A DNA stretch of 53,933 bases from Longimicrobium sp. (GTDB taxonomy: Bacteria > Gemmatimonadota > Gemmatimonadetes > Longimicrobiales > Longimicrobiaceae). A program made the position numbers and the translations under genes. Location: assembly GCA_036387335.1 (NCBI GenBank), contig DASVTZ010000140.1:1-53933 (forward strand). Reading direction: 5' to 3'. Below the pieces are notes generated by a model. It was not told the DNA's origin and searched no databases. It worked only from the letters and a program-made list of their open reading frames with translations. How positions within the stretch are numbered: the stretch's first letter is position 1; every line of letters begins with the position of its first letter. Below are positions 45,601-53,712 of the stretch, in pieces.

Positions 45601-46311
45601 TCATTGCGCGGCGGACTCGGTCACCGCCTCCAACAGGCGCCGACATTCTGCAGCAGTCACACCCACACAGATCTTATAGCCTCCGATCTCCTCGAGCAGC
45701 GTTGCTGCTGCGTTGCGTATCGGTTGAGGCGTGTGGGGATCACCCGCTACGCGACGCATACGGTGTTCAGCTCTGCTCAGCGCGTCGCTCGGGAGCGCGC
45801 GCCCCGTGAAAATCGGGTCATCGGCAGTCGCAATCAGCCCGTCAATGCCGACCCCTTTCTCGGTTGTTCTGGACATTGCGTAATAGTCGTAACTGGCCGA
45901 AGCACCGCCCCCCTGGGGGTCGAGTTGCGCAGAGAGGATTCGGATGGCCTGAACTCTCGCGGCGATGCTCGCGGTCGGATCGGAGGTCATCGCAAGCGCA
46001 GTCTCGTATACAGAGGCGTCACGCAACCTTGTCGCCGCCCAGACGATCGGCTCCATCACCGAAGGATTCAGCGACCGCTGATACCGCTCGAGCGTGCGAG
46101 ACAGTGCTACCCCACCCTCGTTGCCGCACGAGACGATGATGTTCAACGCCCACCCCTCCCGGGTGGCAGGCTGCCCGAGGGTAAGTACCTGACTCGCCAA
46201 CCGGCAGTCGTTCCGATGCTTGATGGAATCAGGGTCGACCTGACCCGCCAAGCTCTGCGAAATGGCCGTACACAAGCACACCGCTAGAACGACAAGAGTC
46301 GATCTGTACAT
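45601..46311 (-). CDS. Exported hypothetical protein, 236 residues
   Basis: The N-terminus is a signal peptide (STLVVLAVCLCTAISQSLAG). The mature part is helical: DCRLASQVLTLGQPATREGWALNIIVSCGNEGG, LNPSVMEPIVWAATRLRDASVYETALAMTSDPTASIAARVQAIRILSAQ and a C-terminal EIGGYKICVGVTAAECRRLLEA. The alternation of short helices with DP-xx-SIAARVQAIRIL resembles HEAT-like repeats. Four cysteines may form disulfides. GAGGGGG precedes the ATG at 46311. It is the second gene of the operon with the HExxH lipoprotein, 37 bases away. No family is recognised. Confidence 0.72.
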   Translation of the reverse strand: MYRSTLVVLAVCLCTAISQSLAGQVDPDSIKHRNDCRLASQVLTLGQPATREGWALNIIVSCGNEGGVALSRTLERYQRSLNPSVMEPIVWAATRLRDASVYETALAMTSDPTASIAARVQAIRILSAQLDPQGGGASASYDYYAMSRTTEKGVGIDGLIATADDPIFTGRALPSDALSRAEHRMRRVAGDPHTPQPIRNAAATLLEEIGGYKICVGVTAAECRRLLEAVTESAAQ

Positions 46312-46348: not shown

Positions 46349-48121
46349 TCACCTTGGATTGCGCCGCAAACCGGTTTCGCACCCAGGATCCAGGTAACCA
46401 ATCGTGCTGTGATCATCATCTACCATCTCTCCGATCCATTTGCGGAGGTTGCGCACAACCAATCTTGTCAACTCCTCCCGGAAGCGCTCCTTTGGAGCGA
46501 AGCGGACGAGCGATTCGAAATGCATGTTGACGTAACCCCTCTCCGCTAAACGCTGAGCGTGATCAGCATGGCTTCCCTCGTGCACCTCGACCGCCGAAGC
46601 GAGATCCGATGGGCGGCAATTCGATCTGCGGTACAGATCGCTGCGACGGTCGTACAGCTGCTCGTTCAGAAAGACAACGAGCGCAGCAAAGCGGATCGGA
46701 GCATCGCTCCCGCTAACGTACGACCAGCCTGTATTCGGCCCTGACTCGATCTCCGCGTACGGAATCGCCAAACCTGACTCCGGGTACAGCTTCGTTTGTC
46801 CGAGATCCCGATCGTACACCGGAGGTGAGCCGAGAGGGCACTCGTCCGTAAGAGGAAGAGAGCATCCGACCTTTCTGAGCTGCGCGGGCGGAACCGGATC
46901 GTGCCAGACGCGAGCATCGACTTCGATTCGGGCAGCCGCTGGCCGCAACGCGAGCTCCCCAATCGTACCTGCGACCTCTATTCGTCCACCTTTAGCCATG
47001 ACGCCCGCCCACGTGGTCGACGTCACATCACCATCCGTGCGTGCTTTCCCCTCAAAGCTCCAGCCGGTGATCTTGAGCTCGCCGGGGGCGCTCGCGGGGT
47101 CTTTGCTGGCGGTGCAGGTGATGGACTGGCCGCGCGTGACCGGGTTGGGAGTACAGCCCAGCTTCAGGCGAACGGGTTGGACACGCACGATCTCGCTCTT
47201 GGCGAAGACGATCTGGTCCTCGATGTGTCCGCGCACCCACATGCGCCCGCTCACCGCGACGCGGGTGGTGCACGCCTCTTTGCGCCGACAGCTCGCGAGC
47301 GCGTCCCAGTCCGCCGCCGGCGCGGCCGCTGCCGAGATGGAGAACGATGCTCCACCGGCGCGTGCGAGCGCCGCGGCCGGTCCGCTCTCCGGGAGGGTGT
47401 CGCCGGCGACGAAGGCCCATTCCAGGTTGCGCATCTCCTCGTCCGCGCGGGCGGTGAAGCCCACCGGTTCGCCGGGATCGGTCTCGGTGCGGTCTGCGCG
47501 GACGGAAAGCGGGTTGATCTCTTCGACCGTAAGGGTCTGCGTGCCGGTGAGGCGGTAGCGTCCCGCGCGGCCGGGCTCGTGCGTGCACGACCAGCAATCG
47601 CCGAACTCCCAAAGCCCGGCACGGCCCGCGAGCACGCTCGTTCCCGCGCTGACCCACATGATGTCCTCCGCACCGTCGCCGCCGGATGCGCGGGGACGCC
47701 ACAGGAAATAGGCGTTGTTCATCGCCACCTGTACCTCCAGCCCGTCGTTCACCCCGAGCGGGCCCGCGGAGGCGCCGTCGTACGGGGGCGGGCACTCGGA
47801 CGGCGGGCCGGGGTTGCAGAAGCGGCGCACCCACTCGGGATCGGCGTCTATCCGCACGCTGCCGCTCACCCGCACGCGCACCCACATGTCGCGCGGGATC
47901 ACGATGCCTGTGGGCGCCAGGCGGACCTCGCCGAACTCCTGCAGCGTGCTCCCCGGCACGGAGATCGTGTGCGTGGCCGAAAACGACGCGGACGCGGCAG
48001 CCATGGGCCGTCCACCAGAGAGCGGAGCGGATCCCGTGGGGGCGGTCGGCTGGTCCACGCACGCCGTGATCAACAGGATGGACGCGAGCGCGAATCTTCG
48101 GAATAGAGGGTGGCGCGGCAT
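46349..48121 (-). CDS. Lipoprotein with HExxH motif, putative secreted metalloprotease
   Basis: A 590-residue protein. The signal ends ALASILLITACVD, Cys about residue 20. Residues about 40-400 are beta-rich with paired cysteines (CNPGPPSECPPP, CWSC, CRRKEAC, LGCTPNP) and Ig-like stretches such as NPLSVRADRTETDPGEPVGFTA. Near the C-terminus is VEVHEGSHADHAQRL, where His514, Glu515 and His518 form an HExxH zinc motif (46568-46582). The third ligand is not clear. The start at 48121 gives a compact signal peptide. A riboswitch-like leader and terminator lie upstream. No exact family is recognised. Confidence 0.75.
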   Translation of the reverse strand: MPRHPLFRRFALASILLITACVDQPTAPTGSAPLSGGRPMAAASASFSATHTISVPGSTLQEFGEVRLAPTGIVIPRDMWVRVRVSGSVRIDADPEWVRRFCNPGPPSECPPPYDGASAGPLGVNDGLEVQVAMNNAYFLWRPRASGGDGAEDIMWVSAGTSVLAGRAGLWEFGDCWSCTHEPGRAGRYRLTGTQTLTVEEINPLSVRADRTETDPGEPVGFTARADEEMRNLEWAFVAGDTLPESGPAAALARAGGASFSISAAAAPAADWDALASCRRKEACTTRVAVSGRMWVRGHIEDQIVFAKSEIVRVQPVRLKLGCTPNPVTRGQSITCTASKDPASAPGELKITGWSFEGKARTDGDVTSTTWAGVMAKGGRIEVAGTIGELALRPAAARIEVDARVWHDPVPPAQLRKVGCSLPLTDECPLGSPPVYDRDLGQTKLYPESGLAIPYAEIESGPNTGWSYVSGSDAPIRFAALVVFLNEQLYDRRSDLYRRSNCRPSDLASAVEVHEGSHADHAQRLAERGYVNMHFESLVRFAPKERFREELTRLVVRNLRKWIGEMVDDDHSTIGYLDPGCETGLRRNPR

Positions 48122-48159
48122 CAAGGTGCTGGCTGGCGGTGGGGAGAAGACGTCAGGGG

Positions 48160-48185
48160 AAAGACGAAGCCCCGTGCTCCGGGGC
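48160..48185 (-). terminator. Leader terminator of the HExxH lipoprotein operon
   Basis: On the minus strand GCCCCG-GAGCA-CGGGGC (48185 to 48169) is followed by TTCGTCTTT. It lies between the riboswitch-like domain and the start codon, where an expression platform would sit. Confidence 0.62.
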
Positions 48186-48244
48186 GGGTGCCGGGAGGGC
48201 ACACGGGTCCGAAGCGACGGGGCGCGATAGGGGCGGCGTCTGGC

Positions 48245-48335
48245 GGGCTTCGGCGGCTGGGCCGTCTCCACGCGGGAGACCCCTGGCTTTGCGGACCGGC
48301 CTCACGACCGGGGTGCTCTTGTCGGCTGCGGAAAG
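48245..48335 (-). promoter_or_regulatory. Putative class-I cyclic-di-GMP (GEMM-I) riboswitch
   Basis: On the minus strand a stem CCGGTC/GGCCGG (48311-48306 and 48301-48296) is capped by the GNRA loop GTGA. It is followed at once by CGCAAAGCC (48293-48285), the best known core of GEMM-I RNAs. Then a second stem GGTCTCC/GGAGAC (48281-48275 and 48269-48264) leads to GGCCCAGCC. The order and spacing match the aptamer. The closing P1 stem and the GCAAACC strand are less clear (here GAGCACCC), so a variant or a decayed copy is possible. The rest of 48122-48519 holds no gene that I can see. Confidence 0.68.
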
Positions 48336-48519
48336 GTTACGCTCCCGTGCGTTTCAAGTCAATGTTTCCGTGCCAGCCTTCCGACGCGCCCTCGCGTGCC
48401 CCGCGCCCCCTGCCCCGGCGCTGGCGCGAGTCCTGCGTTGCCGCGCGGGTTGCGCGCCGGGCGCCGTCCCCATGCGGCAAACGGATCTCCGGCGCACGAG
48501 GAACACCCCAACCATAGCC

Positions 48520-49377
48520 ATGGCAGAGACGTCAGACCCGGACGACCTGAAGGCGCGGGTCGAGCAGATTGGCAGGGACGCGGGCGCCGAGCGGGTGGCG
48601 TGCTGCATGTTCGACTACCACACCCGCGGCTGGTGGGACTACCAGGGCGACGAGTGGTTCCACGCGGCCAGCACCATCAAGGTGCCGATCCTGGTGGGGG
48701 TGTTCGGCGCCATCCACCGCGGCCGGCTCGCGCGCGAAAGCCGGGTGCACGTGCGGAACCGCTTCCTGAGCGTGGCCAACCGCCAGCCCTTTCGCGTGGA
48801 GGCCGCGCGCGACGCCAACGCCGTCGTCCCCCAGCACCTAGGGCGCACGCTCAAGGTGGACGAGCTGTGCTTCCACATGATCGTCACCAGCAGCAACCTC
48901 GCCACCAACCTGCTGGTGGACCTGGTGGGGCTGGACGACCTGCGCGCCTCGGTCAAGGAGCTGGAGATCGACGGGGTGCAGCTGGAACGCGGCGTGGAGG
49001 ACAACGACGCCTTCGACGCCGGGATCAGCAACCGGGTGACCGCGCGCGGAATGGTGAAGACGCTGCGCCACATCGAGGAGGGGACCGCCTTCTCGGTGGA
49101 GGCCTCCGCGCGGATGCTGGAGATCATGCACGAGCAGGAGTTCCGCAGCGGGATTCCCGCGGGAGTGCCGGACGGGGCCAAGGTGGCCAACAAGACGGGG
49201 GAGATCTCCACGGTGGCGCACGACGCGGCCATCGTCTACCTCCCCGGCCGCAAGCCGTACGCGATCACCGTGCTTACCGAGTGGGAGCCGGGCTCCAGCG
49301 GGCGGCACGACACCATCGCCCGCATCTCGCGCGCCGTGTACAACCACCTGACCGCCGCGGGGAAGAAGAATGCCTGA
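48520..49377 (+). CDS. Cytoplasmic class-A beta-lactamase-fold serine hydrolase
   Basis: A 285-residue protein of the Beta-lactamase2 group. Catalytic elements are STIK (Ser51, Lys54), SSN (Ser124, Asn126) replacing SDN, and KTG (225-227). The family includes penicillinases and acyl-serine peptidases. No signal peptide is seen, which is unusual for a true lactamase, so an intracellular amide or ester substrate is more likely. I use ATG at 48520; upstream ATG at 48472 is also in frame but gives a basic extension. Its stop overlaps the next start by eight bases. Confidence 0.85.
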   Translation: MAETSDPDDLKARVEQIGRDAGAERVACCMFDYHTRGWWDYQGDEWFHAASTIKVPILVGVFGAIHRGRLARESRVHVRNRFLSVANRQPFRVEAARDANAVVPQHLGRTLKVDELCFHMIVTSSNLATNLLVDLVGLDDLRASVKELEIDGVQLERGVEDNDAFDAGISNRVTARGMVKTLRHIEEGTAFSVEASARMLEIMHEQEFRSGIPAGVPDGAKVANKTGEISTVAHDAAIVYLPGRKPYAITVLTEWEPGSSGRHDTIARISRAVYNHLTAAGKKNA

Positions 49378-51546: not shown

Positions 51547-53712
51547 CTAGCGGTTCATGCTGGTCAGGATGCGGTTGGCGGCCGCGGTCAGCTCGGCGCC
51601 GGTCGAGGCCGGGAGCTGGCCGCTGCGCACCGTCGCGTCCACGTGGTTCAGGAAGGCGCGCATCTGGCCGTTGGCGGCGGCCAGGTTGCCGCGATCCAGC
51701 GAAGCCTGCGCGTTCCGCAGCGGTGCGGAGAACGAGGCCGCCTGGTCAAGGCCGGCTACCGCGCTGAGAAGCGTGGCGGAGATCGCCTGCTGCGCCGTCA
51801 GCACCGTAACCGTCGCCGTGCCGTTGCCCGAGCCGCCGTCGTTGTCCTGCACCGTCACGCTGACCGTGTGGGTGCCGGCGGCCGTGTAGGTGTGGCTCAG
51901 CGAGAAGCTCTGGCCGTTCAGCGCCAGCGGGTTCAGCCCGCTGCCGTCGCCGTAGTTCACGGTGGCCGACCACTGGTCGGGGTCCGCGTCGGCAAAGGAG
52001 CCGGCGGCGGCGTAGCTCTCACCCGGCAGGAGCGTCGCGCCGGAGAATGACGAGATGGCGGGGGCGATGTTCGCGATCACCACCGTGCTCGTGGTGGTGC
52101 TCGAGAGGTTCGCGGCGTCGACCACCGTCAGCGACACGCTGTAGCTGCCGGCGCGCATGTAGGTGTGGCTCGCCTGCGCCGTGGTGGCGGTGTTCGAAGC
52201 CGAGGCCGCGTCGCCGAAGTTCCACGCGTAGCTCTTGATCGCCTTGCCGTTCGGGTCGAACGACGCGGTGCCGTCGAACGCCATCGCGACGCCCTTGTTG
52301 CCCGTCGAAGCGTTCACCGGCTTCGCCACCGGCGCGGCGTTCGGGTTCTGCCCCGTGATGGCGCGGTAGGCGTTGATGCGGCCGGCGCCCGTCCGGTTGT
52401 CCCAGCCCGGAGCCTCGATGTCGTCGGCGGTCTCCTTCAGGCGCTGGCGGATGGCGTTCGCGTCGCGGGTGCCCGTCGCCCACAGCAGCGCGGCGAGGCC
52501 GGCGACCTGCGGGGTGGCCATCGACGTGCCGGCCTTGAATCCGAACGAACCATCGCCGGAGTTGCTCGCGGCCAGGATCAAGCTGTTCCCCGTGTTCAGC
52601 GGATTGCCGTCGCCGCCTGGCGCCGAGATCTCGATCTGCGGGCCGTAGTTGGAGTAGCTCGCCTTGGTGTCGCCCCAGTTGGTGGCGCCCACCGCCATGC
52701 ACTCGTCGAAGCGGGCCGGGTAGCCCACGCCGCCCGTGTAGCCGTTGCCCGCCTTGGCGTCGTCGTTGCCCGTGGCGCACACCGGAAGCACGTTCTTGCT
52801 GGCGGCGTAGCGCAGGGCGGCGAGCTGCGCGGCGGAGCCGGAGCCGTCCGGGTTACCGCCGAAGCTGCCCAGGCTCATGTTGATGACGTTGGCGCCGTTG
52901 TCGGCCATCCACACGATGCCGTCCGCCGTCGCCGAGCTGGGGCAGGTACCCGCGGAGTTGCACACCTTGCCCACGAGGAGCTTGATGTTCTTGCCGTACG
53001 CCACGCCCGGTACCGCCGAGGTGCCGATGCCGGCGGCGATCCCGGCCACGTGCGTGCCGTGGCTGTGGTCGTCGTTGTAGTTCGTGACAGCCACGCCGTC
53101 GTTCAGGAACCGGCGCCCGCCCAGGATCTTGCCCGCGAACTGCGAGTGCGTGGCGCGGATGCCCGTATCCAGCACGCCGATGACCGCGGAGCCGGCGAAG
53201 CTGTTGCCGCCCAGGTAGTCGAAGGTCTCCGCCCAGTCCATGTCCGCGTCCGCCTTGGTGCTCGCCTGCGTCAGCACCGTGCCGGTGTTGTGCAGGTCCC
53301 ACTTGTAGCCGAAGAACTGCCCGTCCGGCAGCGTGCAGGAGGTCGAAACCTCGCACGGCCCGATGCGCATGATCCGGTCGGTCTCGGCGAACTCCACGTT
53401 CGGGTTCCTCGAGAGCTGGGCGGCGATCTCCGCCTCCTGCCCCACCGGCACTTCCATGATCTCGGTGCGCTCCAGCAGCATGTCCGCCTTCTTGTGCGCG
53501 CGGTGCTGCTCCGCGATCTCCGAGCGGGCCGCGCCCGGACGGAAGCGGACGATGATCTGCCCCGGCACGATGTCGTGCGCGTCGGCGGCGGTCTCGTTGA
53601 GCTTGATCCCGCCCGGCGCGAGCGCGTCACGCGCCGAGTCCACGGGGTTCAGATCGGAACAGGCACCCAGACCGAAAAGACCGGCAAGGAGGAAAGGCGC
53701 AGCACGCTTCAT
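51547..53712 (-). CDS. S8 subtilisin-like serine protease lipoprotein with PKD domains
   Basis: A 721-residue secreted protease. The signal ends LAGLFGLGAC, so Cys18 is probably lipidated. Residues about 50-115 form the inhibitor I9-like propeptide. The catalytic domain has Asp182 in VLDTGI, His218 in HSHGTHVAG and Ser397 in GTSMATP, with the oxyanion Asn316 in CATGND. Two PKD-like domains follow (about 462-545 and 550-638), then a helical FIMAH-type tail with QASLDRGNLAAANGQMRAFLNHVDA. It is anchored at the cell surface or outer membrane. A promoter lies about 94 bases upstream. Confidence 0.93.
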   Translation of the reverse strand: MKRAAPFLLAGLFGLGACSDLNPVDSARDALAPGGIKLNETAADAHDIVPGQIIVRFRPGAARSEIAEQHRAHKKADMLLERTEIMEVPVGQEAEIAAQLSRNPNVEFAETDRIMRIGPCEVSTSCTLPDGQFFGYKWDLHNTGTVLTQASTKADADMDWAETFDYLGGNSFAGSAVIGVLDTGIRATHSQFAGKILGGRRFLNDGVAVTNYNDDHSHGTHVAGIAAGIGTSAVPGVAYGKNIKLLVGKVCNSAGTCPSSATADGIVWMADNGANVINMSLGSFGGNPDGSGSAAQLAALRYAASKNVLPVCATGNDDAKAGNGYTGGVGYPARFDECMAVGATNWGDTKASYSNYGPQIEISAPGGDGNPLNTGNSLILAASNSGDGSFGFKAGTSMATPQVAGLAALLWATGTRDANAIRQRLKETADDIEAPGWDNRTGAGRINAYRAITGQNPNAAPVAKPVNASTGNKGVAMAFDGTASFDPNGKAIKSYAWNFGDAASASNTATTAQASHTYMRAGSYSVSLTVVDAANLSSTTTSTVVIANIAPAISSFSGATLLPGESYAAAGSFADADPDQWSATVNYGDGSGLNPLALNGQSFSLSHTYTAAGTHTVSVTVQDNDGGSGNGTATVTVLTAQQAISATLLSAVAGLDQAASFSAPLRNAQASLDRGNLAAANGQMRAFLNHVDATVRSGQLPASTGAELTAAANRILTSMNR

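Follow-up and report, generated by a model that had tools for sequence, protein, structure and literature searches.

Of the two second messengers considered here, c-di-GMP is the common signal and cGAMP the rarer one. Among GEMM-I riboswitches, aptamers that bind c-di-GMP have G at position 20, whereas the Geobacter aptamers for cGAMP have A, and an A20G substitution turns a natural cGAMP riboswitch into a c-di-GMP one; many of the Geobacter RNAs of this type (GEMM-Ib) are selective cGAMP binders (PMC6456294). Position 48 of the Geobacter cGAMP aptamer is A (A42 in PMC6274999). Position 20 has been termed a selectivity factor and no hard filter (PMC9262584).

Here we describe a GEMM-I RNA from a Gemmatimonadota host, Longimicrobium sp., encoded in a stretch of 53,933 nucleotides (GCA_036387335.1, contig DASVTZ010000140.1, positions 1 to 53,933) that we refer to as the window. 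Compared with the Geobacter GEMM-Ib RNAs (RF01051 members, for example upstream of pgcA/GSU1761, Gmet_0970 and pilM), the window RNA has the same GEMM-I fold with A20, A47, A48 and C92. The two systems are also alike in having several such RNAs per genome, a Hypr GGDEF in the same genome and surface or secreted functions under apparent control. By contrast, the window RNA has a compact P3 with a GUGA/GCGA loop and a CUC/GAG helix, whereas the Geobacter RNAs have GAAA and a CUA-type receptor, and its predicted logic is OFF by a three-strand exchange.

Our best explanation of the locus, to which we assign a probability of roughly 0.58, is an A20-type cGAMP switch with a Hypr-type enzyme (P0001) as the source of its ligand and an OFF platform before a HExxH operon. 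If true, Hypr-riboswitch cGAMP signalling as worked out in Geobacter would extend to Gemmatimonadota on a different aptamer scaffold. The regulated genes would differ from those of Geobacter, comprising secreted HExxH lipoprotein cassettes, an exopolysaccharide operon and a GAF-kinase/clpS/clpA locus, and a separate G20 c-di-GMP regulon would run alongside in the same cell. The locus would then offer an independent system in which to ask how one base separates two second messengers. In the literature that was searched, which left out most subscription papers, no paper joined Gemmatimonadota with a cGAMP riboswitch, Hypr or a c-di-GMP riboswitch, or Longimicrobium with a riboswitch.

The GEMM-I aptamer and its scaffold

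A cmscan search of the whole window against Rfam returned a single RNA above threshold, a GEMM-I aptamer with the following features.

48249..48327, minus strand: GEMM-I aptamer with A20/A47/A48/C92, a GUGA-capped P2 and a short P3 (RF01051, 42.1 bits; RF03167, 47.1 bits, below that model's cut-off; covariation)
48317, minus strand: position 20 (Vc2 numbering), an A, the c-di-GMP/cGAMP selectivity base (Rfam alignment; census in relatives; role from PMC6456294)
48253, minus strand: C92, pairing partner of the ligand guanine (Rfam alignment; invariant in alignment A4)

The match to RF01051 (c-di-GMP-I), at 48327-48249, exceeded the gathering score of 35, spanned the model at full length (1-87) and had an E-value of 6e-5 over all Rfam and of 1.6e-6 when the family was searched in the same genome. 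The P2 cap is the GNRA loop GUGA at 48305-48302, and the CGCAAAGCC core and short P3 are present. The preliminary description, made from the letters of the window, had read a GNRA-capped stem, a core and a second stem in GEMM-I order, and the covariance model bears that reading out. It had also remarked that P1 departs from the consensus, and indeed two C-G pairs beside the ligand are all that remains of it. The conservation of the stems, on which that description had staked its proposal, was found as well: when 21 related short-P3 RNAs were aligned to the GEMM-I structure, 93.9% of pair cells held standard pairs and 9 of the 22 pairs had changes on both sides. The covariation score was 0.236 compared to 0.106 in shuffles (0/500 reached it), and none of five structure measures was matched by any of the 500 shuffles. 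Folded by itself with RNAfold, the aptamer failed to give back the known GEMM-I fold.

Judged by homology, which establishes its kind, the window element is a real GEMM-I riboswitch. Its lowish score (42 bits), weak P1 and a T-tract that decays in a relative (G006) could indicate a degenerate or non-regulatory relic. We regard this as very improbable, however: two copies in G006 have a near-identical leader and G005 has a very similar aptamer, pocket and stems being preserved in both genomes, and the three-strand platform described below is found again in otherwise different leaders.

The closest scaffold is that of RF03167 (c-di-GMP-I-GGC), a family of the same clan that scored the RNA higher than RF01051 did; the window RNA likewise has a short P3 that lacks the consensus internal loop. 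However, it falls short of the RF03167 gathering score of 59, and the model consensus has G20 and G47 whereas the window RNA has A20 and A47, its core reading CGCA rather than CGCG. With the canonical c-di-GMP-I riboswitch (Vc2 type) it has the fold, A47 and C92 in common, but it carries A20 instead of G20 and a divergent P3 and tetraloop receptor. The GEMM-I RNAs examined here fall on two scaffolds. On scaffold A, P2 is capped by GAAA and P3 contains CUA; on scaffold B, which is that of the window RNA, the cap is GCGA or GUGA and P3 includes a CUC/GAG helix. The loop type was coupled to the receptor type, CUC accompanying 59 of 63 GYGA loops and CUA 27 of 31 GAAA loops. Read with the rules by which GNRA loops dock onto helices, this coupling looks like the pattern expected if one GNRA-receptor type replaced another. 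In two other leaders, L061 (G008:C120) and L064 (G003:C48), tandem short-P3 GEMM-I aptamers, both with G20, lie about 8-14 nt apart.

Position 20, a Hypr-type enzyme and the predicted ligand

The genome that holds the window (G000) is Longimicrobium-type, 5.8 Mb in size and 95.7% complete. It has seven GEMM-I RNAs above cut-off, four with A20 (the window RNA, L004, L006 and L007) and three with G20 (L001-L003). Behind the A20 RNAs lie the window cassette, a diverged cassette, an exopolysaccharide operon and a locus in which a GAF-HisKA gene is succeeded by clpS and a clpA-like ORF; behind the G20 RNAs lie genes for two GH26-type proteins and one PAS-GGDEF-EAL protein. The coexistence of A20 and G20 RNAs ahead of different genes argues for two signals, and a single base seems to divide two dinucleotide regulons within the genome. 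The window RNA agrees with the Geobacter cGAMP riboswitch at A47, A48 and C92, and its A20 with A47 and C92 kept is the sequence pattern expected of GEMM-Ib. Position 20 was C in two short-P3 RNAs whose pocket is otherwise intact, L055 (G018:C57) and L058 (G002:C15).

There were 21 GGDEF matches in the same genome. Apart from a few weak or odd matches that were unreadable by motif, all had Asp at the site of PleD D344 except one, which has Ser:

G000:C205:3188-4300, minus strand: P0001, a GAF-GGDEF protein of 371 aa with a Ser-type GGDEF and the Hypr signature

Ser248 of P0001 occurs with an intact GGDEF motif (GHLAGS ... YGGDEF), in line with the Hypr rule of Ser/Thr plus GGDE[F/Y], the sole combination seen among natural Ser/Thr enzymes (PMC6456294). 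The protein also has Asn239, and Asp204 at the cross-dimer site, which is Arg in 94% of canonical diguanylate cyclases and replaced in Hypr enzymes. Its best PDB sequence match was 6D9M, the Hypr domain of GmGacA, a Geobacter cGAMP synthase. Similar to GacA (GSU1658 / Gmet_1914), P0001 has Ser at the specificity site, the GGDEF motif, the equivalent of Asn339 and a non-Arg cross-dimer residue; however, that residue is Asp in P0001 and Tyr in GacA, and the P0001 N-terminus matched a GAF domain only. A search of viral contigs with P0001 found distant GGDEFs only.

From A20 and from the Hypr-type GGDEF that the genome also encodes we infer that the ligand is most likely cGAMP (GEMM-Ib, 3',3'-cGAMP type) and not c-di-GMP. 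The preliminary description had left the choice between c-di-GMP and cAMP-GMP open, a stance that still holds, but its reading of the operon as set by the c-di-GMP level is disfavored by the same two observations. Its reason for caution, the divergence of P1, has to be dropped: P1 does not decide the ligand, and position 20 is the specificity base.

We then compared the distribution of the RNAs with that of the enzymes. Hypr-type enzymes were found by a strict DNA pattern in 31 of 395 genomes of the phylum, and the A20 pattern search over the phylum covered 80 genomes. In the 21-genome family, A20 RNAs were present in all six Hypr-positive members and in 10 of the 15 Hypr-negative ones, a non-significant association (Fisher p = 0.26); the number of A20 RNAs per genome was higher with Hypr (Mann-Whitney p = 0.017, no phylogenetic correction). 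One relative (G044), 100% complete on 7 contigs, has A20 RNAs without any Hypr enzyme, and none of the approximately 100 GGDEF domains (E <= 1e-20) from 13 A20-positive, Hypr-negative genomes combined Ser/Thr with an intact motif; all were of the Asp type save one with Ser and a broken GGAEF motif. No SMODS synthase scored above threshold in any of the eleven genomes tested; the genome of the window had none, and G018 had one match below threshold. In other families of the phylum, genomes with a Hypr enzyme had no A20 GEMM-I match, so cGAMP there would need a different receptor. A Ser-type GGDEF in G023 (L261) was considered as Hypr and rejected; its motif is GGAEF and it is probably inactive. 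A second Hypr-signature GGDEF type, fused to a hydrophobic, membrane-like N-terminal part, recurs in other Gemmatimonadota families (L123-L147).

Positions 20 and 48 covaried: G20 was accompanied by A48 in 52 of 52 RNAs and A20 by G48 in 23 of 38 (p ~1e-11, no phylogenetic correction), which poses a concrete question about GEMM-I specificity. Sixteen of 17 A20/G48 RNAs had A..C at the base of P3, and the window RNA, which is A20/A48, has those bases too; L006 and L007 of the same genome are of the A20/G48 kind. The combination of A20/G48 with the A..C base could be an unreported specificity subtype. When 84,980 species genomes were scanned for it with an exact pattern, 23 matches came up, about half of them in Gemmatimonadota and some of the others due to chance.

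The A20 RNAs that occur without Hypr leave room for relaxed specificity, an unrecognized synthase or another ligand. Under the first of these, the window RNA would answer to c-di-GMP in vivo, with A20 tolerated and with specificity either loosened or recovered through the divergent scaffold. Well-assembled relatives with A20 RNAs and no Hypr, such as G044, fit this account, as does the published view of position 20 as a factor in selectivity and not an absolute filter (PMC9262584). C-di-GMP is, moreover, very probably present in the cell, given the roughly 20 other GGDEF matches in the genome. We nevertheless consider it unlikely, since the genome has a Hypr enzyme and keeps A20 and G20 RNAs side by side before different genes, and since c-di-GMP specificity results when a natural cGAMP riboswitch carries A20G (PMC6456294).

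A different account makes the Longimicrobiaceae A20 RNAs, most of them A20/G48, a separate specificity class that differs in ligand or in mode of recognition; the window RNA would be an A20/A48 member of it. The 20/48 covariation, the A..C base that the window RNA shares and the occurrence of A20/G48 RNAs without Hypr or SMODS enzymes are all consistent with this, but the conserved C92 and A47 imply that one guanine and an intercalating A should be read as usual, and the window RNA has A48, like Geobacter; we judge such a class quite improbable. Because A20 RNAs persist in near-complete genomes that lack Hypr and SMODS enzymes, they might more broadly read neither c-di-GMP nor Hypr-made cGAMP, responding instead to another asymmetric dinucleotide or to cGAMP from an unrecognized synthase, which we likewise hold to be improbable. 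Recognition of Hypr-made cGAMP is the reading that we carry forward below.

Expression platform and proposed switch

From the P1 3' strand onward, three strands and a putative terminator can be assigned on the same strand as the aptamer.

48247..48253, minus strand: CCGAAGC, the P1 3' strand including C92-G94, complementary to a downstream GCUUCGG (sequence complementarity)
48209..48215, minus strand: GCUUCGG, the switching strand, whose partner is either the P1 3' strand (antiterminator) or CCGGAGC (terminator) (complementarity; recurring spacing)
48160..48222, minus strand: long hairpin CCCCGU-C-GCUUCGG...CCGGAGC-ACGGGG (48222-48170) followed by CUUCGUCUUU, putative terminator (RNAfold; promoter/terminator scan)

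The hairpin with TTCGTCTTT was the sole terminator-like site within 48050-48650, where 0.1 were expected, in agreement with the preliminary description, which had placed a hairpin and terminator before the start codon. An alternative compact hairpin at 48185-48169 could also terminate. The T-tract is imperfect. The three-strand platform, with a spacing of 27-31 nt, recurred in leaders L037, L043, L041, L079 and L080. The leaders that carry it come from G000, G006 (two copies), G018 and G020, differ in their outer stems and tails, and include one with G20; the platform is missing from leader L056.

In the mechanism that we propose, the GAF-GGDEF enzyme P0001 would make cGAMP, which would bind between A20/A47 and C92 and stabilize the aptamer, including P1. 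In the bound state, CCGAAGC would be held in P1, leaving GCUUCGG free so that the long terminator hairpin could close (OFF). Without ligand, pairing of CCGAAGC with GCUUCGG would break the hairpin and transcription would enter the lipoprotein and partner genes. The platform is common to independent leaders, which suggests transcriptional OFF control. We infer this direction at odds of about 55:45 over ON, making it the weakest step of the explanation, and the characterized Geobacter pilM cGAMP switch is, contrary to the logic proposed here, an ON switch (PMC9262584). Also counting against OFF are the imperfect T-tract, which decays in G006, the second possible terminator at 48185-48169, the weakness of P1 and the failure of the isolated aptamer to fold as known. 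Other A20 RNAs of the same genome, such as L007, more likely act on translation, because they lie very close to the start codon.

In G006, the riboswitch-lipoprotein leader is found at least twice at contig ends (C33, C131 and C60), suggesting a recent duplication of the cassette.

The HExxH cassette and neighboring genes

The leader precedes two genes on the minus strand.

46349..48121, minus strand: lipoprotein of 590 aa with Ig-like repeat(s) and a C-terminal HExxH domain (HEGSH) (homologues; Ig-like part modelled confidently)
45601..46311, minus strand: partner, a secreted all-helical HEAT/ARM-like protein of 236 aa with the motif HRNDCRLA (synteny of relatives; model pLDDT 78)

The lipoprotein has the lipobox LLITAC, and the partner gene starts 37 nt after its gene, matching the secreted HExxH lipoprotein and partner of the preliminary description. 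That description had gone further and called the operon one of a putative metalloprotease. The HExxH motif stands, being unchanged across seven homologues with identities as low as 26% (H202/E203/H206, alignment A2), but the identity as a protease does not follow: neither the lipoprotein nor its partner matched a Pfam or NCBIfam family, and the AlphaFold model of the HExxH domain is of low confidence (pLDDT below 60). Because no curated family matches either gene, a protease function is read from the motif and is unproven. A fold search with the partner gave only weak helical-repeat PDB matches (best E 0.23).

Relatives of the lipoprotein-partner pair adjoin in G005, G006, G011, G014 and G027, and such neighbors span several genera; G004 and G005 are genomes of the same genus. 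A plasmid DNA similarity search found no match. The pair is a lineage-specific secreted HExxH cassette. The diverged cassette in the genome of the window (C126) lies behind an A20 GEMM-I RNA and has three partner paralogues, and a third lipoprotein paralogue (C191) lacks HExxH, and no GEMM-I was detected for it.

On the other side of the leader, a divergent gene (48520-49377, plus strand) encodes a Beta-lactamase2-family protein (PF13354, E 2e-48) and shares its intergenic region with the riboswitch transcript; the gene after it is weakly M15-like (E 0.12). Farther along the window, at 51547-53712 on the minus strand, lies a gene for a secreted subtilase (PF00082) with PKD domains.
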